In this document: positions 24,773 through 33,602 of the stretch, piece after piece
Layout of the letters: each line of letters begins with the position of its first letter
Numbering within the stretch: the stretch's first letter is position 1
Source of the DNA: Sulfurifustis variabilis
Lineage (GTDB): Bacteria; Pseudomonadota; Gammaproteobacteria; Acidiferrobacterales; Sulfurifustaceae
Reading direction: 5' to 3'
Assembly: GCF_002355415.1 (NCBI RefSeq)
Contig: NZ_AP014936.1
Span: 3,224,001 to 3,288,000 of the forward strand
DNA: 64,000 bases
Notes under the pieces: generated by a model
The model's input: only the letters and a program-made list of their open reading frames with translations
The model's database searches: none
What the model was told of the DNA's origin: nothing
Position numbers and translations under genes: made by a program

Positions 24773-26398
24773 TCACGACGAAACGTGGGCGCCTGCCTCG
24801 TGCAACGCCCGTTTCCGGTACAGCATCGGGTCGATCCGATGCGACTTGAGCTTCTGGTGCACGGCGCGCGGCGTGATCCCCATCTCCCGCGCCGCCGCGG
24901 ACACGTTCCCCTCGCAACGCAGCAGCACCTCCCGCAGCACCCTGCCCTCGATCTCCATGGCCGCCCGCCGCTTCATGCTGCGCAATACAAGCTCATCCGG
25001 GGCGGCTTCCCGCTCGTGGGAGAACCTTTCGGTGTCGACGAGCATGTCCTCGATAACGGGACCGGTCGCGAACAGGAACGAGCGCTCCAGGACGTTCTCG
25101 AGTTCGCGCACGTTGCCGGGCCATTCATAGGTCATTGCCCGGATCCAGGACCGCTCGCTCAAGGTCTTCGATGGCAGGCCGTGCTTGGCTGCCAGTTTGC
25201 GCAGGATGTGGTCGGTCAGAACGGAGATGTCGTCCCGACGTTCCCGAAGGGGTGGGATATGGATCGGCACGACGTTCAGGCGATAGTAAAGGTCCTGCCG
25301 GAACTCCCCTGACTTCACCATCTGGTCAAGCCCACGATTGGCGGCGGCGATGATCCGCACGTCGGCGCGCAGCACGTGTTTGCCGCCGACGCGCTCGTAT
25401 TCGCCCTCCTGCAATACGCGCAGCAGCCGGCCCTGGGCGGCCAACGGCAGGGAATTGATTTCGTCGAGGAACAGAGTACCGCCTTCAGCTCGCTCGAACA
25501 GCCCGTGATGGACCTGGTAGGCGCCGGTGAAAGCGCCTTTCTCGTGCCCGAAGAGCTGGCTCTCGATCAGGTTCTCCGGGATCGCGCCGCAGTTGACCGC
25601 GATGAATTCGCGTGTCGCGCGCCCGCTGAGCGCGTGCACGGCGCGCGCGATGATTTCCTTGCCTACGCCGGTCTCGCCCCAAATGAGCACCGCCGCCGTC
25701 GTCGGCGCGACGCGCTCGGCGCACTCGAGCGCCCGGCGCATCGCTGTCGACTCGGCGACGATCTTGGGTCTAGGGTACGCAGATGAGGACTTGTCCTGGT
25801 GGGAGCTGCACCACGCCTGACGCATTTTTTCTTCCACGCGTACGACGGCCTCGAGCGATGCGGACCGTGAAACGATCGTGTTCCCCTCGACCTGGTACTC
25901 GTCGCCCTCGCGCCCGGCGGCCTTGGTCCGGTCGAGATAGACGCACACTTCGCAACCACCGTCGTTGTTCGCAATGCGCTTCTTGAGCTCCACCTTCGCA
26001 TACCCGAAATTCCGGGCCGCGATCCCACCGAAGACGCTGGCGGTCATTCGGCACAGCTCCGGGGCTTCCTTTACGGCATCGCCGAACGGGCAGCGCGTAT
26101 TGATGACACGCACGACACCCGCCTCGCTCGACGCGCGCGAGAAGTTGCCACCGATCTGGTTCTTGAGCGAGACAATGACATCCGCGTACTGATCGGGCGA
26201 CAGGCCTCCCTTCAGGCCGGCCTGTTCCCGGCACGCTTGCTCGAAACAGCCGCTCGCGCTGAGCCCGAGGTGCTCGATCAGGTTGAGGCGGCTGCCGCAC
26301 GAGGCGCAGCCGAGCTGGTTCGCGATCTTGACACTCTGTGTGGCGAAGCTCTGGAGAAAGGAAATGGCGTTCAGTTTGGTCGGCGGCTTGGTGTACAT
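24773..26398 (-). CDS. Sigma-54-dependent activator with Cys-rich N-terminal sensor
   Basis: A 541-residue enhancer-binding protein. The N-terminal part (about 1-165) is cysteine-rich (CASCGSRLN, SGCFEQACREQ, CPFGDAV, CEVCVYLD) and resembles the MetOD1/V4R type of small-ligand or redox sensors. The central AAA+ domain has Walker A GETGVGKE, GAFTGA loop, Walker B GGTLFLDE and arginine finger FRQDLYYRLNV. The C-terminus has a Fis-type HTH (GNVSAAAREMGITPRAVHQKL). It can contact sigma-54. A textbook -24/-12 promoter stands upstream of its own gene (26532-26546), and two more lie in front of the adjacent operons, so it is probably autoregulated and controls them. The ATG at 26398 begins the conserved sensor; the frame extends upstream to 26476. 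Confidence 0.9.
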   Translation of the reverse strand: MYTKPPTKLNAISFLQSFATQSVKIANQLGCASCGSRLNLIEHLGLSASGCFEQACREQAGLKGGLSPDQYADVIVSLKNQIGGNFSRASSEAGVVRVINTRCPFGDAVKEAPELCRMTASVFGGIAARNFGYAKVELKKRIANNDGGCEVCVYLDRTKAAGREGDEYQVEGNTIVSRSASLEAVVRVEEKMRQAWCSSHQDKSSSAYPRPKIVAESTAMRRALECAERVAPTTAAVLIWGETGVGKEIIARAVHALSGRATREFIAVNCGAIPENLIESQLFGHEKGAFTGAYQVHHGLFERAEGGTLFLDEINSLPLAAQGRLLRVLQEGEYERVGGKHVLRADVRIIAAANRGLDQMVKSGEFRQDLYYRLNVVPIHIPPLRERRDDISVLTDHILRKLAAKHGLPSKTLSERSWIRAMTYEWPGNVRELENVLERSFLFATGPVIEDMLVDTERFSHEREAAPDELVLRSMKRRAAMEIEGRVLREVLLRCEGNVSAAAREMGITPRAVHQKLKSHRIDPMLYRKRALHEAGAHVSS

Positions 26399-26766
26399 GA
26401 CGGCTCCCCCATCGTATTTGTCTTTGTCGAAGCGCTTCGGTGATCGAACTGACGGCGCTCCTCGGGCGCGACGCACTACCGAGACGCCAGCGTATCACTG
26501 GGCGAGGCAACCGGCGGCTCCAGCGAGGTTCGCAACGAGCGTGCCAGTTGCGACCAAAGAAAACTTTCGCCAGACAAGCAGTTATGATCGACTCGTCGCC
26601 CGACCAAGAAAATAAAGGGAAACCGCTATTTCCGTGCACGGCGAGAAGCGCGAAAAATCAACAAGATACCCTGCGAAGCATTGCTTCGTTGGATGAAATA
26701 GAAGTTCGTTCGGATCTGCACCTGCGCGGGGCAAAACCGACCGCGCGGTCTCGCCTCCGCGCCCCG
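26399..26766. other. Intergenic region upstream of the sigma-54 activator
   Basis: No gene is supported. It contains the sigma-54 promoter at 26532-26546 and is AT-richer around 26560-26710 than flanking coding DNA, as expected for a regulatory region that may include activator sites and the 3' untranslated end of the porin gene transcript. Confidence 0.5.
26532..26546 (-). promoter_or_regulatory. Sigma-54 (-24/-12) promoter of the activator gene
   Basis: The minus strand reads TGGCAC-N5-TTGC, an exact match to the RpoN core consensus. Transcription would start near 26520, giving a leader of about 120 nt before the ATG at 26398. Confidence 0.75.
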
Positions 26767-28143
26767 TTACCACGGATGCGCGTCGTGTTCGAAAGACATC
26801 TCGACGCGCACACCGACGACCCATGCATTCTTCAAGGTCGGATCGGTTCCGGGATCGACCACGTACTGCACGTCCGGCTGCACCGCCAGCCACGGTCGTA
26901 CCTGCGCGCGGTAGGTCAGCTCGAACACGGTCTCGGCCTCGGTGACCGGCGCGCCGGCGAGCCGCTGGAGCCGCTGGTACTTGCCGCCGTTGCGTGCTTT
27001 AGCGAGCGAAAGGCCGAGCTGGTCTTGAGGCCGCCCGGGGACGAGACCGGTGTAGACAGCGCCCGCGCCCAAGGCATGGGCGAAGCGGTTCACGTCGGAA
27101 TTCGCCCGGCCATAACGCAGGAAAACGTCCAGCCCTTGCTCCGCGGCGTCCGCCTCGCGGTACATGCCGTGCTCGGCCAGGAAGTAGACGCCCCGGTCGG
27201 TGCGCTGACGGGGTAGACCTTCAGAGTCGACGTAGAGCAGATCGTCGAAGCGCGCCGTATAGCGCCAGGTTCCGAGCGCGTACTTGCTGGAGCGCTCGGA
27301 CTTTCCGTCGGCCAGATAGCCGACCTCGGCGACAATCAACGCGCCGTCACCCTCGGCGAAGCGGATGCGCGTGCCGCGCGGGTTGTCGGGATCGCCCGGA
27401 ACGCCGTCGAGGGCGACGGCCTGGAGGTACAGCGAAGGCATTGGTTCCGCCTTTACCCTCATGCCGACGGAGGTGGTCGGGAAGATGGAGGGCCCGTTGC
27501 GGCCGGTCTGATTGAGATCCTTGCCGGTACCGAAGGAGTCGTTCAGGAACAGCTCGGAGCTCTCCGTGACGTAGAACTCCGAGTTGAGGTCGTAGAGCCC
27601 GGCGAGGAACGACAGCCGTTCCTGATACAGGCTCTTCTGCACCCACGCCTCGAAGAGCTTGGTCGTGCTCGGGGCCTCGATGTTGCTCACGGCCTGCGCG
27701 GCACCGGCGTGCTCGCTCGGCTCGCCCCCGTGGTTGTTCAGGAGGTAGACGAAGAAGATCGTGTCCTGCCACCCGAGCAGCCGGTCCGCGTCGACGGTCG
27801 ACTTGAGATCCACGTTGCCGAGGTATTCGGCTGTACGGCGCACGCCGCCGGAAACATTGGCGAGAACGTCCGCCGTATAAACCAGCTTGAGGCCGTGCCG
27901 CTCGCCGAGCCCGTCGTGGCGCGCCCCGCGTTCGGTTCCGTGCACGGGAGCCTCGGCACTCTCGGGCGCGGCATCCGCGGCGGGCGCCGGGGATCCGACG
28001 AGGGACAACACGAGGGCGGCGAGCTGGCAGAGCAGGTCGCGGCAGCGCCGGCATGAGCACGTTCGCGATGCGGTACCGCCGGCCGAAACCGTGACGGCGC
28101 TTTCTTCTTCCGCGCAACCCGCCGCGCGGCAGCACTCCGGCAT
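26767..28143 (-). CDS. OprB-family outer membrane porin
   Basis: About 458 residues. After a Cys-containing N-terminus and a hydrophobic export segment (LLCQLAALVLSLVGSPAPAAD) the chain has the OprB pattern: GLKLVYTADVLANVSGG, LEAWVQ-like KLFEAWVQKSLYQERLSFLAGLYDLNSEFYVTESSELFLN and alternating beta strands up to VVGVRVEMSFEHDAHPW. OprB porins conduct sugars and other small solutes. Here it lies at the end of the carbonic-anhydrase/FmdB/MerC unit, so its solute may be something other than sugar. Start is uncertain: ATG 28143 has a weak ribosome site and the frame is open further upstream. Confidence 0.82.
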   Translation of the reverse strand: MPECCRAAGCAEEESAVTVSAGGTASRTCSCRRCRDLLCQLAALVLSLVGSPAPAADAAPESAEAPVHGTERGARHDGLGERHGLKLVYTADVLANVSGGVRRTAEYLGNVDLKSTVDADRLLGWQDTIFFVYLLNNHGGEPSEHAGAAQAVSNIEAPSTTKLFEAWVQKSLYQERLSFLAGLYDLNSEFYVTESSELFLNDSFGTGKDLNQTGRNGPSIFPTTSVGMRVKAEPMPSLYLQAVALDGVPGDPDNPRGTRIRFAEGDGALIVAEVGYLADGKSERSSKYALGTWRYTARFDDLLYVDSEGLPRQRTDRGVYFLAEHGMYREADAAEQGLDVFLRYGRANSDVNRFAHALGAGAVYTGLVPGRPQDQLGLSLAKARNGGKYQRLQRLAGAPVTEAETVFELTYRAQVRPWLAVQPDVQYVVDPGTDPTLKNAWVVGVRVEMSFEHDAHPW

Positions 28144-28250: not shown

Positions 28251-28664
28251 TCAGCATGCAGATTCCGCGCATACCCGGCACGTCCGGCAAAAGTAGAGAT
28301 TGACGAGATGCGCGACGACCATCGCGATGCCGCCCGACACGGTCGCGATCGTCTCCAGCGACTCGGACGACATCGACTCGGGCAGGACGACCGGCAACCA
28401 GATGAGCGCCACCCCGGCCGATCCCAGGCCCAGCACCGGGCTGCGCCTGTGCTTTCTGAAGCCGGGGACGAACGCGAGCAGGCTGAACGATAGGACCGCA
28501 AGCGCGAGGACGGCGTGGGTCGCCCCTTCCATCGCGGCGATGATCGGCAGGACGGCGGCCACGAAGGGGGTTGCGACGCAATGGGCGACGCACAGAGTCG
28601 AGGCCGTCAGCCCCGCGCGGTCCCACACGGGCCTGCTGGTCAACAGGCGAGTTGCGAACGTCAT
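28251..28664 (-). CDS. MerC-family membrane protein
   Basis: A 137-residue membrane protein with four hydrophobic helices and the MerC cysteine pair in helix 1 (STLCVAHCVATP). The C-terminus adds CRTCRVC and a final Cys. MerC proteins take up Hg(II) in mercury operons, but no merA, merT or merP is present here, so a different thiophilic substrate or a sensing role is possible. It lies between the FmdB-type and porin genes on one strand, downstream of the carbonic-anhydrase-like gene. The ATG at 28664 has a GGAGG ribosome site. Confidence 0.8.
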   Translation of the reverse strand: MTFATRLLTSRPVWDRAGLTASTLCVAHCVATPFVAAVLPIIAAMEGATHAVLALAVLSFSLLAFVPGFRKHRRSPVLGLGSAGVALIWLPVVLPESMSSESLETIATVSGGIAMVVAHLVNLYFCRTCRVCAESAC

Positions 28665-28764: not shown

Positions 28765-29004
28765 TCACCCGGTGCCCCTCGGCCGCGATGGTGGGCAGCA
28801 CCGGCATCCTTTGCCGCACTGAGGCAGCGAGCGGATGGCCGCCTCGCGCCCTGCCGATGCAAAGCCGTGCATGGCCGGGGAGCGCAGAATCACCCTACGA
28901 GCAGGCACACCGCAGTCGGGACATTCTGGGTCCGGCGCGGAAATCGACTGCTGTATCTCGAAAACTGCGTCACAGGCTGTGCAGCGGTAGTCGTATGTCG
29001 GCAT
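28765..29004 (-). CDS. FmdB-family zinc-ribbon protein
   Basis: A 79-residue protein beginning MPTYDYRCTACDAVFEI and continuing PECPDCGVPARRV, the two CxxC knuckles of the FmdB/CxxC_CXXC_SSSS putative regulatory domain. The tail adds a second Cys cluster (CGKGCRCC). FmdB proteins sit next to amidase and C1/S1 metabolism genes and are thought to be regulatory or metal-handling. The ATG at 29004 has an AGGAGAG ribosome site. It follows the carbonic-anhydrase-like gene by 100 bp, with a GC-rich hairpin in between. Confidence 0.85.
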   Translation of the reverse strand: MPTYDYRCTACDAVFEIQQSISAPDPECPDCGVPARRVILRSPAMHGFASAGREAAIRSLPQCGKGCRCCPPSRPRGTG

Positions 29005-29104: not shown

Positions 29105-29791
29105 CTACGACCACCGCGGAGGCTGCTTGCCCTTCACGCCCATCGAAGCGGCCGTCGCCTGTGTCACCGCCCGTGTCGGCGCCTCGAGGTTCGGCGCGCG
29201 CAGCCGACGGAACTCGGTCTCCCAGATCCAGCCACTGATCACCACTTCCTTCGGGATGAGCGGATGGTTGCGCAGCAGCTCAACGCACCTGATACAGGTC
29301 GCGTCGACGTCGTCCATCATTCCGATCCACTTGGCGAAGGCACCTTCCTTGAGCGTGAGCTCTGGCAAGGAGGGATCGATCGCAACCGCCGCCGTATCGA
29401 CCGCCGTGGCGCGCACCACCTCTTTCTTGAAGATCCCGCGCTCCTTCAGATCCTTCTCCAGGTCGAACCCGTTGGCCGACAGCATTCCGCACCCGGTGTG
29501 CTGCAGGACGACGATCTCGCGGGTACCGAAGAAATTGATCGTCAGCATCGCAGAGCGGATGGCGTCGTCGGTCACGATCCCGCCTGCGTTGCGAAACAGG
29601 TGTGCGTCGCCCCCACCAACTGGAGTGTCGGCGCGGATGCCCAACGCTTCATCCACTGGTAGCCGCTCGTCCATACAGGCGAGTACCCAAAGGCGGCGCA
29701 AGTTCGGACCTTCGGCGCCATACTGCCGCTTGATTTCCCATCGCTGGCGCTGTTCGACGGATTGCTCGAGTTGCTCTTTCAACGTGGTCAT
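29105..29791 (-). CDS. Beta-carbonic anhydrase, clade-D type (possible COS/CS2 hydrolase)
   Basis: A 228-residue beta-CA. The zinc ligands C39 (in ACMDERL), H98 and C101 (in QHTGCGM) and the Asp41-Arg43 dyad are present. RNAGG, TDDAIRSAM and FGTREIVVLQHTGCGM match clade D, the branch that contains carbonyl sulfide and carbon disulfide hydrolases as well as true carbonic anhydrases. An acidic insert (about 105-175) makes it longer than the short clade-D enzymes. A sigma-54-like promoter lies 69-84 bp upstream (29860-29875). Flanking SQR, TusA and DsrE genes would consume sulfide, which favours a COS/CS2 substrate, but plain CO2 hydration is not excluded. Confidence 0.85.
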   Translation of the reverse strand: MTTLKEQLEQSVEQRQRWEIKRQYGAEGPNLRRLWVLACMDERLPVDEALGIRADTPVGGGDAHLFRNAGGIVTDDAIRSAMLTINFFGTREIVVLQHTGCGMLSANGFDLEKDLKERGIFKKEVVRATAVDTAAVAIDPSLPELTLKEGAFAKWIGMMDDVDATCIRCVELLRNHPLIPKEVVISGWIWETEFRRLRAPNLEAPTRAVTQATAASMGVKGKQPPRWS

Positions 29792-29859: not shown

Positions 29860-29875
29860 TGCACGTGGCGTGCCA
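29860..29875 (-). promoter_or_regulatory. Probable sigma-54 promoter of the carbonic-anhydrase-like operon
   Basis: The minus strand reads TGGCACG-N4-GTGCA, one mismatch from the RpoN consensus (TTGCA at -12). The predicted start is about 55 bp before the ATG at 29791. Confidence 0.6.
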
Positions 29876-30371
29876 TCCAGAAATCCTCTTTCGGTTATTG
29901 CACTTGCGAAACGGCGACCGCTGTACGTGTGCACGCCAGCTACGCGGGAGCAACGGCACTGCGGCGCTAAGTCATTGTCGAAGCGAACAATCGCCCAGGG
30001 ATGCCGAAGTTCCTTGTGTGAAGCAGCACTTCGCAGTCGTCGGTGAACGGAATTGCCCGCGCACGGGTTGCCGATGACGAGCCTGATCGAGGCCACCGAG
30101 CGGGAGCTCGAATGGGCGAGTTTTGGTTGGCAAGCGCACGCGTGCGCCGAACACGAGCGCCTGGTTCGCACGAACGCCCGGGCCCTCGGCCTCGGTCGCG
30201 ACCCGCTCGCCGAGAACTTCCGCTTCCCTGTGCGAAATTGAAGCTCGCCCCGCGAAGCATGTGATCGAACGAAGGAAACACGCGCATGACGGCCGAAGGG
30301 CCTGAAGCGGCACTTCGCTGTCACCGCTGACGTGAGGACTTAGGTCGTTGTTTCCTTGCGCTTTCGCCGCC
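29876..30371. other. Divergent control region between the two sigma-54 units
   Basis: About 500 bp between the back-to-back -24/-12 promoters. It contains a doubtful 55-codon frame (30074-30241) and imperfect direct repeats built on GAAGC(A/G)GCACTTCGC (near 30019 and 30304), which are candidates for activator binding. Confidence 0.45.
30074..30241 (+). CDS. Doubtful 55-residue ORF
   Basis: The frame reads MTSLIEATERELEW...LAENFRFPVRN, charged and helical, with plausible codon use but no ribosome site. It lies inside the divergent regulatory region. It may be a chance ORF or a gene fragment. Confidence 0.25.
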   Translation: MTSLIEATERELEWASFGWQAHACAEHERLVRTNARALGLGRDPLAENFRFPVRN

Positions 30372-30387
30372 TGGCACGGCGCCTGCT
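30372..30387 (+). promoter_or_regulatory. Probable sigma-54 promoter of the OmpW/sulfide operon
   Basis: The plus strand reads TGGCACG-N4-CTGCT, one mismatch from consensus at the first base of the -12 element. Transcription would start near 30398, about 58 bp before the ATG at 30456. Confidence 0.6.
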
Positions 30388-30455: not shown

Positions 30456-31109
30456 ATGATAAGCAGACCGGTCGCAATCATCGTCGCTACCGCTCTAATG
30501 CTTAGCGGCACCTTGGCGCAAGCGGAGCAGAATTGGATGGTCCGGGGCCGAATCCTCAATGTCGCGCCAAACGACAGCAGCGGGGAGGTGTCCACGCTGC
30601 CAGGATCGGGCGTCGAGGTCGACGGCGACACGACCCTTGAGCTCGATTTCACCTATATGTTCACCCGCCACGTGGGCGTCGAGTTCATCCTGGGAACAAG
30701 CAAGCACACGCTCAAGGGAGACGGCACCATTGCCGCGCTGGGGGAGATCGGCGAGGCGCGCACCCTGCCGCCCGTCGTGACGCTCCAGTACCACTTCGCA
30801 CCCGACGGAACGGGCATGCGGCCGTACGTCGGCGTAGGCGCGAACTACACGAAGTTCTACGACGAGAGCGTCACCTCGTCACTCGAAGCGGCACTCGGGC
30901 CGACGAAGCTCGAGATCGATGACTCGACCGGGCTCGCCGCGCAGGTCGGAGTTGATTTCCCGATCGGCGGGCGCTGGCTCCTGAACCTCGACGCGAAGTA
31001 CATCGTGATGGAAACCGAGGCGACGTTGAGGTCGGGGGGCGTATCGCGCCGCGTCGATATCGATCTGAACCCCTGGTTCCTCGGCTTCGGCCTCGGCACG
31101 CGCTTCTGA
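30456..31109 (+). CDS. OmpW-family outer membrane protein
   Basis: A 217-residue protein with a signal peptide ([18 protein letters not shown]) and eight-strand barrel features: [88 protein letters not shown] and the terminal aromatic TRF. OmpW channels pass small hydrophobic molecules, which would suit an uncharged sulfur gas or organosulfur substrate. The ATG at 30456 has a GAGGAAG ribosome site; an upstream GTG at 30429 is less likely. First gene of the plus-strand operon. Confidence 0.9.
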
Positions 31110-31156
31110 CGCCGACGCCGCCGGCTGACCTGCATCGGCTCCGATCGACCGTATCC

Positions 31157-31552
31157 ATGGCCTCGAACAAGCTCAACATCATGGTCCTCTCCGGCACGCG
31201 CGAACGGCTGCAGATGGCCGCCATGCTCGCCTCCGTGGGTGCGGTCAGCGGCAACCAGGTAGCTGTCTTCCTGTCGATGAATGCCCTGCCGTTCTTCCTG
31301 CGAAACGGCGATATGCCGCCCCCGCCGGCCGAGGGGCCAGTGGGTGCGCTGATGGAAACAACGAAAGTGCCGCCGTTCACGGAGCTGTTTCGACAGGCGG
31401 TCGAGCTCGGCGATGCCCGGATCTACCCCTGCTCCATGGCTATGGACGTGCTGGGCGCCACGCCCGACAAGTTGGAACCTTTCCTCGCGGAGCCCCTCGG
31501 TCTGACCAAGTTTCTCAACGACGCCGAGGGCGGCCAGGCGTGGACGTTCTAG
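31157..31552 (+). CDS. DsrE-family protein
   Basis: A 131-residue DsrE/F-like protein: [40 protein letters not shown] and a conserved Cys in [12 protein letters not shown]. DsrE-type proteins carry persulfide sulfur between enzymes in the cytoplasm. It is followed at short distance by tusA and an SQR-type gene, the order seen in sulfur oxidisers. Confidence 0.88.
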
Positions 31553-31565
31553 GAGGCACCGCGTC

Positions 31566-31883
31566 GTGTCGAAACCGAAGATCATCGGCCCGGAACAGTC
31601 CTGGGGCGCGCGTCTCGAGAGGAAGTGGCGCAGCATCCCGGTCGCGCGGGCGAGCGCGCCGAGAAAGGTCATCGATGCCCGTGGGACCTTCTGTCCCGGT
31701 CCGCTGATGGAGCTGATCGCCGCCATGAAGATCGCGGAGGTGGGCGACGAGATCGAGGTGCTGTCCAGCGACCGCGGCTCGGCGTCCGACATCCCGGAAT
31801 GGATCCGCAAGGTCGGCCATGAGCTCATGTCGACGAGCGAGCAGGAGGGCGTGTGGCATGTCGTGGTTCGAAAGGCGAAATGA
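31566..31883 (+). CDS. tusA: TusA-family sulfur carrier
   Basis: A 105-residue protein whose last 70 residues form a TusA domain with the persulfide-accepting motif FCPGPLMEL. The first 35 residues are a basic extension not found in E. coli TusA. It transfers sulfane sulfur, probably with the preceding DsrE protein and the following SQR. The start ATG at 31566 lies 13 bp after the dsrE stop, with an AGGAGG ribosome site. Confidence 0.92.
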   Translation: MSKPKIIGPEQSWGARLERKWRSIPVARASAPRKVIDARGTFCPGPLMELIAAMKIAEVGDEIEVLSSDRGSASDIPEWIRKVGHELMSTSEQEGVWHVVVRKAK

Positions 31884-31910
31884 TCTGAACCACTCGAAGC
31901 AGGAGGAGCA

Positions 31911-33044
31911 ATGCGGATACTGATCGTCGGTGGCGGAATGGGCGGCACGATTCTCGCGAACAACCTCGCGCGGCGCCTGAATAACGAGCTCAAGACCGGC
32001 AAGGCGCGCATTACGATGCTGTCCGCCTCGGACAAACACATGTATCAGCCGGGCCTGCTCTACGTCGCGCTCGGGCGCATGACCCCGGACGAGCTCTATC
32101 GAGACCAGGCGAGCTTGCTCGAGCCCGGGATCGAGTTTCACGTCGACCCGGTCGACGAGTTCCAGCTCGACAAGAATCAGGTCAAGGCGAAAAGCGGCAA
32201 GACCTACGGCTACGACCTGATCGCCATCGCCACCGGCTCGCGCCCCGTCCCGGAGGAGATACCCGGCCTCGCGGAGAACTCGATCAACGTCTACACCGAG
32301 GAGGCCGCGCTCAAGTTCTTCCAGACCATCAGCCGGTTCCAGGGCGGGCGCGTGGTGATCGCGGTGGGCGTACCGCACAAGTGCCCGATGATCCCGCCGG
32401 AGGTAACGTTCACGCTGTACGACTACTTCAAGAACCGCGGCCTCGCCGACAAGGTCTCGTTCCACTACACCTACCCGATCGGGCGGTTGCACAGCCTCGA
32501 GCCCGTGAGCAAGTGGATGGAGGGCGAGTTCGCCCAGCGCGGCATCACCTCCGAGACCCTATTCAACATCAAGGAGGTCGACGGGAAGAAGCGGGTCGTG
32601 CGCAGTCTCGAGGGCTCGGAGGCGAAGTACGACCTGCTGGTGGCCGTGCCCGCGCACAAGGGCATGGAGGTCATCGAGAAGAACAACCTCGGCAAGGGCG
32701 GATGGATCCCGGTCGACCGCAACCGCCTCAACATCGAGGGCCACACGAATGCCTTCGCCCTCGGCGACACCACCAACATCCCGATCAGCAAGGCCGGCTC
32801 CACGGCGCACTTCGAGGCCGAGGCGCTCGCTGAGAACCTGGCCTCGATCGTGAAGATCGGCAGCCCCACGCGCGACTACGACGGGAAGGTGTTCTGCTTC
32901 ATCGAAGCTGGCAAGGACAAGGCGACGTATGCCATGTTCAACTACAACAACCCGCCGGACCCCAAGCCGCCGACCAAGTCCATCCACTGGTTCAAGATGG
33001 CCTACAACCAGCTGTACTGGACGAGCGCGCGCGGGTTGCTTTAG
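31911..33044 (+). CDS. sqr: Sulfide:quinone oxidoreductase-like flavoprotein
   Basis: A 377-residue FAD enzyme: N-terminal dinucleotide fold (ILIVGGGMGGTILANNLA), second motif YDLIAIATGSRP and FAD-binding NAFALGDTTNIP. C158 (HKCPMIPPEV) and a second Cys near residue 328 (VFCFIEAG) correspond to the redox pair of SQR, while the third SQR cysteine near residue 128 is absent. The C-terminus is amphipathic, as in monotopic SQRs. It would oxidise sulfide and reduce quinone at the inner membrane, passing sulfane sulfur to TusA/DsrE. Confidence 0.88.
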   Translation: MRILIVGGGMGGTILANNLARRLNNELKTGKARITMLSASDKHMYQPGLLYVALGRMTPDELYRDQASLLEPGIEFHVDPVDEFQLDKNQVKAKSGKTYGYDLIAIATGSRPVPEEIPGLAENSINVYTEEAALKFFQTISRFQGGRVVIAVGVPHKCPMIPPEVTFTLYDYFKNRGLADKVSFHYTYPIGRLHSLEPVSKWMEGEFAQRGITSETLFNIKEVDGKKRVVRSLEGSEAKYDLLVAVPAHKGMEVIEKNNLGKGGWIPVDRNRLNIEGHTNAFALGDTTNIPISKAGSTAHFEAEALAENLASIVKIGSPTRDYDGKVFCFIEAGKDKATYAMFNYNNPPDPKPPTKSIHWFKMAYNQLYWTSARGLL

Positions 33045-33053
33045 GAGACGGCC

Positions 33054-33602
33054 ATGAACGATGCCATACAGGGTGACGGCGCCGCCGCCGAAATCGAACG
33101 CCTGGTGGCGAGCGCGCAGGACGCGCTTACCGACGACATGGTTACGCGCCTGAGCGCGACCGTCGGCGATGGACTCGACCTGCTCGACCGCGTCAACCGC
33201 AGCGGCATCGCCCGCGCCTTGCCGGCGATCGCGCAGCTCGTCGAGAACGGCGATCTCGACCGGCTGGTCAGCCTCGCACGCCTCTTCGCCTCCATCGAAG
33301 ATTCGCTCTCGGACGATATCGTGAGCCGGCTGGCGACCGTCTGGGCCGGGACGGCGGCGCTCGTCGACAAGCTCGGGCGCAACGAGGGCTTCGTGAAACT
33401 GATCGACATCCTCGGGCGCGAGGAAGTGCAGCGCGCGCTGATCGACCTGGCCGAGTCCGCCTGCGCCGCCAGGACCGAGGCCGCGGCGCTGCCGGCCCCT
33501 AAGGGTGGCCTAGGCGGGCTGTGGCAGCTCGCCAAGGACCCCGGTACGCAGGGCGCGCTGCGCTTCGTGGCGCTGGTGAGCAGGCAGTCGCGCAAGCGAT
33601 GA
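33054..33602 (+). CDS. DUF1641 family protein
   Basis: A 182-residue helical protein with DUF1641 features: VGDGLDLLDRVNRSGI, DRLVSLARLFASIEDSLSDDIVSRLA and FVKLIDILGREEVQRALIDL. DUF1641 proteins regularly accompany SQR-like flavoproteins and formate dehydrogenases and are thought to be accessory subunits. Its ATG lies 10 bp after the sqr stop, with a GGAGA ribosome site. Confidence 0.85.
   Translation: MNDAIQGDGAAAEIERLVASAQDALTDDMVTRLSATVGDGLDLLDRVNRSGIARALPAIAQLVENGDLDRLVSLARLFASIEDSLSDDIVSRLATVWAGTAALVDKLGRNEGFVKLIDILGREEVQRALIDLAESACAARTEAAALPAPKGGLGGLWQLAKDPGTQGALRFVALVSRQSRKR

Follow-up and report, generated by a model that had tools for sequence, protein, structure and literature searches.

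We found that a gene of Sulfurifustis variabilis probably encodes a zinc-dependent hydrolase of carbon disulfide (CS2) and carbonyl sulfide (COS) that serves a dedicated sigma-54 regulon (Table 1). Among clade-D β-carbonic anhydrases it would fall in the CS2 hydrolase branch, as one of the sub-type distinguished by a longer tail and two small inserts. The gene lies in a 64-kb stretch of DNA (the window) from a genome that forms one contig of 3.96 Mb. A first-pass annotation had named its product a candidate COS/CS2 hydrolase next to a sulfide:quinone oxidoreductase (SQR). This remained the best reading and could be sharpened: the sequence points to the CS2 hydrolase side of the family and not to the THI115 type of COS hydrolase.

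Table 1. Genes and putative regulatory sites of the cassette, in window coordinates
Feature	Coordinates	Strand	Basis or remark
Sigma-54-dependent activator: MetOD1/V4R-fold sensor, AAA+, Fis-type HTH	24773..26398	-	Sigma54_activat 5.2e-70; MetOD1 Pfam match; fold search
Sigma-54-like site before activator gene, TGGCACGCTCGTTGCG	26531..26546	-	Pattern match
Palindrome upstream of activator gene	26672..26690		2 mismatches to consensus; alone not significant
OprB-type porin, start codon not settled	26767..28116	-	PF04966 3.1e-66
MerC-like small membrane protein	28251..28664	-	PF03203 1.3e-23
FmdB-type zinc-ribbon protein of 79 aa starting with MPTYDYRC; follows enzyme gene in operon	28765..29004	-	Pfam PF09723, TIGR02605
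β-Carbonic-anhydrase-fold enzyme, S1p-like CS2 hydrolase group (CS2/COS hydrolase candidate)	29105..29791	-	ORF, Pfam, alignment, tree
Sigma-54 (-24/-12) site of enzyme operon, TGGCACGCCACGTGCA	29860..29875	-	Pattern score
Palindrome TGTGAAGCAGCACTTCGCA, presumed activator-binding site	30017..30035		Sole perfect copy in the 3.96-Mb genome
Second palindrome, GAAG-N5-CTTC core, before OmpW operon	30301..30319		3 mismatches to full consensus; alone not significant
Sigma-54 site of OmpW-DsrE-TusA-SQR operon, TGGCACGGCGCCTGCT	30372..30387	+	Pattern score
OmpW family outer-membrane barrel	30456..31109	+	PF03922 2.1e-51
DsrE-like protein	31157..31552	+	Profile match; relatives in 6/80 loci
TusA-like sulfur carrier	31566..31883	+	Profile match; relatives in 6/80 loci, one at only 30% identity
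Sulfide:quinone oxidoreductase (SQR)	31911..33044	+	Same kind in L019, L021, L022, L074
Protein of unrecognised family, directly after SQR	33054..33602	+	Follows SQR also in 4/80 loci

The enzyme and its place among clade-D carbonic anhydrases

The open reading frame is intact and codes for 228 amino acids, and its product matched the Pfam family Pro_CA at 32.9 bits (cut-off, 25.7). In an alignment, the zinc ligands Cys39, His98 and Cys101 and the Asp41–Arg43 dyad that characterize clade-D β-carbonic anhydrases were identical across all 91 family rows, the Acidianus CS2 hydrolase (3TEN) and the THI115 COS hydrolase (3VQJ), which bears out the earlier statement that the zinc site is intact. An AlphaFold model of the enzyme was of mediocre to fair quality (mean pLDDT 69.3), and its best match in the PDB by fold search was again 3TEN. 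The genome also encodes a second β-carbonic anhydrase with a full-length Pro_CA match (2.0e-44), which could take care of CO2 hydration. Additionally, we observed that a THI115-type COSase gene of this genome (L002, 2605505-2608714, from base 1501 of that stretch) is broken: the middle of the protein is missing after CGMLAFTD, and its end is encoded in a different frame.

Against solved structures, the enzyme scored 155.2 bits with 3TEN and 64.3 bits with THI115; the other clade-D chains reached at most 78.3 bits, the score of Streptococcus mutans 3LAS. We then placed the family in a tree of 102 rows, obtained by a quick search without bootstrap, with several long branches flagged and with partial reference rows. 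A split with an SH-aLRT value of 100 separated 3TEN, a Halopiger protein and the whole family from the COS hydrolase and the other clade-D rows. A phylogeny with the Thiobacillus COSase and the Acidianus CS2 hydrolase, proposed as a check at first annotation, accordingly put the enzyme on the side of the latter. For this tree a mycobacterial protein was shortened to 225 residues, and we left out L004 and L005, which we took to be the same genes as L026 and L036, together with the clade-D row L015. At 18 positions, the residue of 3TEN was present in at least 90% of the 91 rows of the family but absent from the 8 other clade-D rows compared, of which 5 to 8 were filled at each such position. These group-specific residues include W35, E42, T84, F87 and F88, and the window enzyme carries 17 of the 18, with lysine instead of arginine at position 21. 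THI115, itself a clade-D β-carbonic anhydrase with the same zinc site, has CMDAR where the window enzyme has CMDER, and LL where it has FF at 87-88. By bit score, tree split and residues alike, the enzyme failed to group with THI115-type COS hydrolases. We infer from these sequence comparisons that the gene product most likely hydrolyses carbon disulfide and carbonyl sulfide.

The A1-3 strain of Acidianus provided the closest solved CS2 hydrolase (3TEN/3TEO) by both sequence and fold search, although it is without the two small inserts and the longer tail of the window enzyme. The CS2 hydrolase of Acidithiobacillus thiooxidans S1p reportedly differs from that of Acidianus by nine additional residues in the tail and by PD at 26-27 and TPAGGG at 56-61, and it is said to form only an octamer and no catenane. 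We found AE at 26-27 and TPVGGG at 56-61 in the window enzyme, whose tail exceeds that of 3TEN by nine residues (27 versus 18 residues beyond the last aligned residue). A Sulfuricella relative (L041) has PD and TPAGGG at the same places. If the reported S1p features are right, the enzyme would be of the S1p sub-type, from which it would still differ by an added stretch at about residues 122-131. The Acidianus CS2 hydrolase is described, in passages of PMC13352647, as an archaeal catenane.

The window enzyme had previously been credited with an insert of roughly 70 residues relative to short clade-D members. This was mistaken, as the extra length is spread over three places and does not form one insert. 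The enzyme exceeds the short clade-D protein 3LAS (166 amino acids) by 62 residues, which the alignment distributes as 1 at the N terminus, 6 at 56-61, 27 in the C-terminal tail and 28 in the segment from Cys101 to His176. Of these 28 additional residues, most have counterparts in the CS2 hydrolase 3TEN and therefore mark the CS2 hydrolase group. The stretch of about ten residues at about 122-131 (29399-29428, minus strand) is peculiar to the window enzyme; among the 102 aligned rows, no other fills six or more positions of this stretch.

A conserved cassette and its sulfide-oxidation partners

Close relatives of the enzyme (about 60-81% identity) were present in 12 of 369 genomes of the class, this genome included, and a further 4 of the 369 had matches at 37-38% only. 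A scan of named genomes returned 179 relatives, of which the best 80 make up our locus set; these loci are related to one another, not independent, and many of the stretches end at contig ends. Carriers among the best 80 of 179 include sulfur oxidisers, ammonia oxidisers, methanotrophs, Pseudonocardia and many bins. The gene was carried by 35 of 125 genomes in the family of G323, a genome that is Nitrosomonas-like by its gene. We also found two enzyme-family reading frames in one locus or genome in several instances (L055, L062 and L081; G402 and G433). On one contig filed as Bacteroidetes (L086), the enzyme matched its counterpart from a Nitrosomonas bin (L084) at every column used, and this contig is probably wrongly assigned.

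Within the best 80 of 179 loci, the FmdB zinc ribbon accompanied the enzyme in 77 and a sigma-54 activator in 74, the latter counted by BLAST, so that unrelated sigma-54 activators could be included. Rarer neighbours were MerC (17/80), OmpW (11/80) and SQR (20/80), and relatives of the OprB porin were found in none of the 80 loci within the stretches covered. With the window included, all 78 FmdB genes are on the strand of the enzyme; 73 of them begin -30 to 400 bases from the end of the enzyme gene, and for the remaining five reading frames the first start codon lies 52-189 bases before that end. Of the 75 activators, 48 follow the enzyme on its own strand and 3 precede it there, whereas 20 are divergent and lie upstream and 4 are convergent and lie downstream. 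Seventy lie within 3 kb of the enzyme, and the farthest is 5.7 kb away. Each of the six loci in which we saw no activator (L023, L032, L042, L060, L072 and L083) covers less than 5 kb downstream of the enzyme. One of these, from Pseudonocardia (L072), has neither FmdB nor activator, but only 415 bases downstream are covered.

A shorter relative (L110) has the activator, enzyme, FmdB and OmpW genes consecutively, and the enzyme occurs without the cassette on a mycobacterial plasmid (L099) and alone in L111 and L112. A total of 32 plasmid records matched the enzyme, and among the 20 of 32 listed, one reached at least 60% identity. The Methylobacter plasmid L100 (6068-13378) carries the enzyme, the zinc ribbon, a ZIP metal transporter (a ZupT model match below cut-off), the activator and a cupin, flanked by IS3 and IS1 transposase genes.

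The first-pass annotation had noted that the enzyme gene is divergent from sulfide-oxidation genes, and we confirmed this for the OmpW-DsrE-TusA-SQR operon (30456-33044). The link to SQR, earlier drawn from adjacency alone, gained support from SQRs of three kinds near relatives of the enzyme. SQR genes were near the enzyme in 20 of 80 loci, compared with about 1 expected in 1.3 Mb at the density of this genome (3 per 3.96 Mb), and the other 60 loci showed none within the stretch covered. The first kind comprises the window's own SQR and those of four relatives. The second occurs in ten loci and is accompanied in nine of these by a TauE-type exporter; eight of the ten loci are assigned by name to Nitrosomonadaceae or one of its genera, and a member from L066 scored 332 bits with the mitochondrial SQR. 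The third occurs in six loci, and a member from L024 scored 553 bits with the SQR 3SZ0, which we take to be that of Acidithiobacillus ferrooxidans. One member of each kind was checked individually. Recruitment of three kinds of SQR fits a sulfide-releasing enzyme.

Sigma-54 sites, the shared palindrome and the activator

We found that sigma-54 sites are strongly enriched upstream of the enzyme gene. Sites matching at least 10 of 12 positions were present within 250 bases upstream in 72 of 81 loci, compared with 0.54 expected from dinucleotide-preserving shuffles and with 1 on the other strand. At a threshold of at least 9 of 12, the count rose to 78 of 81 (3.38 expected), and L042, L060 and L072 were the loci without a site. 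The 64-kb window contains exactly two matches to the strict sigma-54 pattern (0.17 expected; two in 1 of 100 shuffles), and these stand before the enzyme operon and before the OmpW-DsrE-TusA-SQR operon. OmpW genes, the window's included, were preceded by a site of at least 9 of 12 in 11 of 12 cases (0.74 expected). For the activator genes of relatives there was no clear enrichment (11/74 at this threshold versus 5.86 expected). Expectations for OmpW and activator genes, here and below, came from single-base shuffles. Sigma-54 itself is encoded in the genome.

Many of the upstream regions of the enzyme also carry a palindrome with the consensus TGYGAAG-N5-CTTCRCA. At least 12 of its 14 positions were matched in 33 of 79 upstream regions of the enzyme, compared with 0.35 expected from dinucleotide-preserving shuffles; the consensus was derived from the loci that were scored, and the window's own copy is not among the copies shown there. 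Matches of at least 11 of 14 preceded OmpW genes in 6 of 12 loci (0.52 expected) and activator genes in 29 of 74 (3.12 expected), where the 20 divergent loci are partly counted again because enzyme and activator have one upstream region in common. In the window, the perfect copy lies between the divergent operons. On the full consensus, the window has 6 matches with up to three mismatches versus 8.13 expected, and two of its three cassette palindromes are not significant by themselves. On their core they are significant only as a set: it occurs four times in the window versus 0.67 expected, and three of the four copies stand before cassette genes. Elsewhere in the genome, a single palindrome with one mismatch lies about 70 bases upstream of another reading frame, presumably that of exonuclease VII, and has beside it only a weak sigma-54-like site (9 of 12). 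We regard this copy as a chance match because reversing the pattern as a control likewise gave one match at this level. In the window, the two divergent operons both have sigma-54 sites and palindromes that presumably belong to a single regulon, which further supports the link to SQR.

The activator is the presumed regulator of this regulon. Cys129, Cys142 and Cys175 (numbered in the 567-residue reading frame) were invariant in 68 of 68 activator rows of at least 500 residues, the window's included. The sensor domain matched MetOD1 in all three activators scanned, with no match to V4R or to any other Pfam sensor family, and a search of the PDB by sequence with the sensor alignment returned no match at E values up to 1. 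A model of the sensor (mean pLDDT 82.5) was used for a fold search, in which TRAPP/Bet3 proteins ranked first (best E value, 1.2e-4), followed by the phenol sensors PoxR, DmpR and MopR (TM scores to the query of 0.50-0.55; E values of 1e-3 to 8e-3). These phenol sensors consist of a sensor, an AAA+ domain and an HTH domain. The window activator resembles them in this layout and in its predicted sensor fold, but its sensor matches MetOD1 and is only about 8-14% identical to theirs. The modelled resemblance to TRAPP/Bet3 and to the phenol sensors makes a pocket for a small hydrophobic molecule plausible.

Alternative roles and a proposed gas-sensing regulon

The β-carbonic anhydrase family and active site of the enzyme, together with the many carriers named as genera that we take to be autotrophs, would also suit an ordinary carbonic anhydrase for carbon fixation with coincidental sulfur neighbours. 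We consider this highly improbable, given the other β-carbonic anhydrase in the genome, the CS2-hydrolase-specific residues and the repeated pairing with SQR. The close relatives are also patchy, both in the class and in the ammonia-oxidiser family, and no RuBisCO or carboxysome gene was among the recurrent neighbours in the part of the clusters that was annotated. Passages of PMC8209446 moreover describe CO2 hydration by related CS2 hydrolases and COSase as negligible or absent. Another possibility concerns the ammonia oxidisers and methanotrophs, in which the cassette could be a detoxification system that shields copper monooxygenases from CS2. The carriers include Nitrosomonas, Nitrosospira, Nitrosovibrio, Methylobacter and Methylomonas, the gene is carried by more than a quarter of the Nitrosomonas-like family, and nine loci pair the mitochondrial-type SQR with the TauE-type exporter. 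CS2 inhibits ammonia monooxygenase (AMO) according to the title of Hyman 1990, as cited in PMC7170481 and PMC9040604, and a passage of PMC4502522 proposes CS2 removal to aid ammonia use in a bioleaching consortium. In the class sample, however, a close relative was present in 1 of 10 genomes with AMO or pMMO and in 11 of 359 others, which is no clear association, and the Sulfurifustis genome itself has no AMO/pMMO match. Protection of copper monooxygenases is therefore only a suggestion, and we think it unlikely.

COS derived from thiocyanate is a serious alternative substrate. The enzyme could be a COS hydrolase for thiocyanate metabolism, turning the COS made by thiocyanate hydrolase into H2S for SQR. 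CS2 hydrolases act on COS too. The genome encodes a thiocyanate hydrolase gamma subunit (393.6 bits; equivalog cut-off, 291.45), and two adjoining reading frames match nitrile hydratase beta below cut-off, as the other subunits would. Some 7 kb from these genes (L117/L118, at about 2.735 Mb) is another SQR, which is of the same kind as the window's and 59% identical to it. Because the THI115-type COSase gene of this genome is broken, COS would need another hydrolase. Against these points, the thiocyanate hydrolase genes are about 0.5 Mb from the enzyme gene, and the enzyme is nearer in sequence to the CS2 hydrolase than to COSase. The 19.5 kb around thiocyanate hydrolase contain no sigma-54 site of at least 10 of 12 and no palindrome above 11 of 14, so the cluster does not look like part of the regulon. 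We judge this role in thiocyanate metabolism to be rather unlikely.

We favour a CS2/COS hydrolase serving its own sigma-54 regulon, and for its substrate, its inducer and the roles of FmdB and OmpW we infer the following scheme. The signal bound by the V4R-like sensor of the activator would be small and hydrophobic (CS2, COS or a product), and the three invariant cysteines may take part in binding it. The activator would then bind the palindrome and fire sigma-54 RNA polymerase at both divergent operons. OmpW would pass the gas or a related molecule across the outer membrane, the hydrolase would convert the gas to H2S and CO2, and SQR, with DsrE and TusA, would oxidise and carry the sulfur. 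FmdB, with MerC or, in some methanotrophs, with the ZIP transporter, may supply zinc to the hydrolase, which makes a product, sulfide, that binds zinc.

Among titles and the beginnings of abstracts, we found no literature linking a CS2 hydrolase with sigma-54, FmdB or SQR. The enzyme adds a member to a group already known; the new part, as far as could be seen, is the surrounding regulon. We tentatively propose, as a possibility somewhat short of an even chance, that the cassette is an undescribed gas-sensing regulon in which detection of CS2 or COS by the V4R-like sensor would lead to hydrolysis, OmpW-mediated entry and oxidation by SQR. It would be mobile among sulfur oxidisers, ammonia oxidisers and methanotrophs, with three kinds of SQR recruited. 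The arrangement suggests that such sulfur gases are sensed by the cell and then either used or detoxified. A dedicated promoter, palindrome and activator would offer a handle on how bacteria sense these gases, and the cassette would be a genome marker separating CS2/COS hydrolases from ordinary carbonic anhydrases. The regulon would also allow a connection of sulfur gases with nitrification and methane oxidation to be tested.
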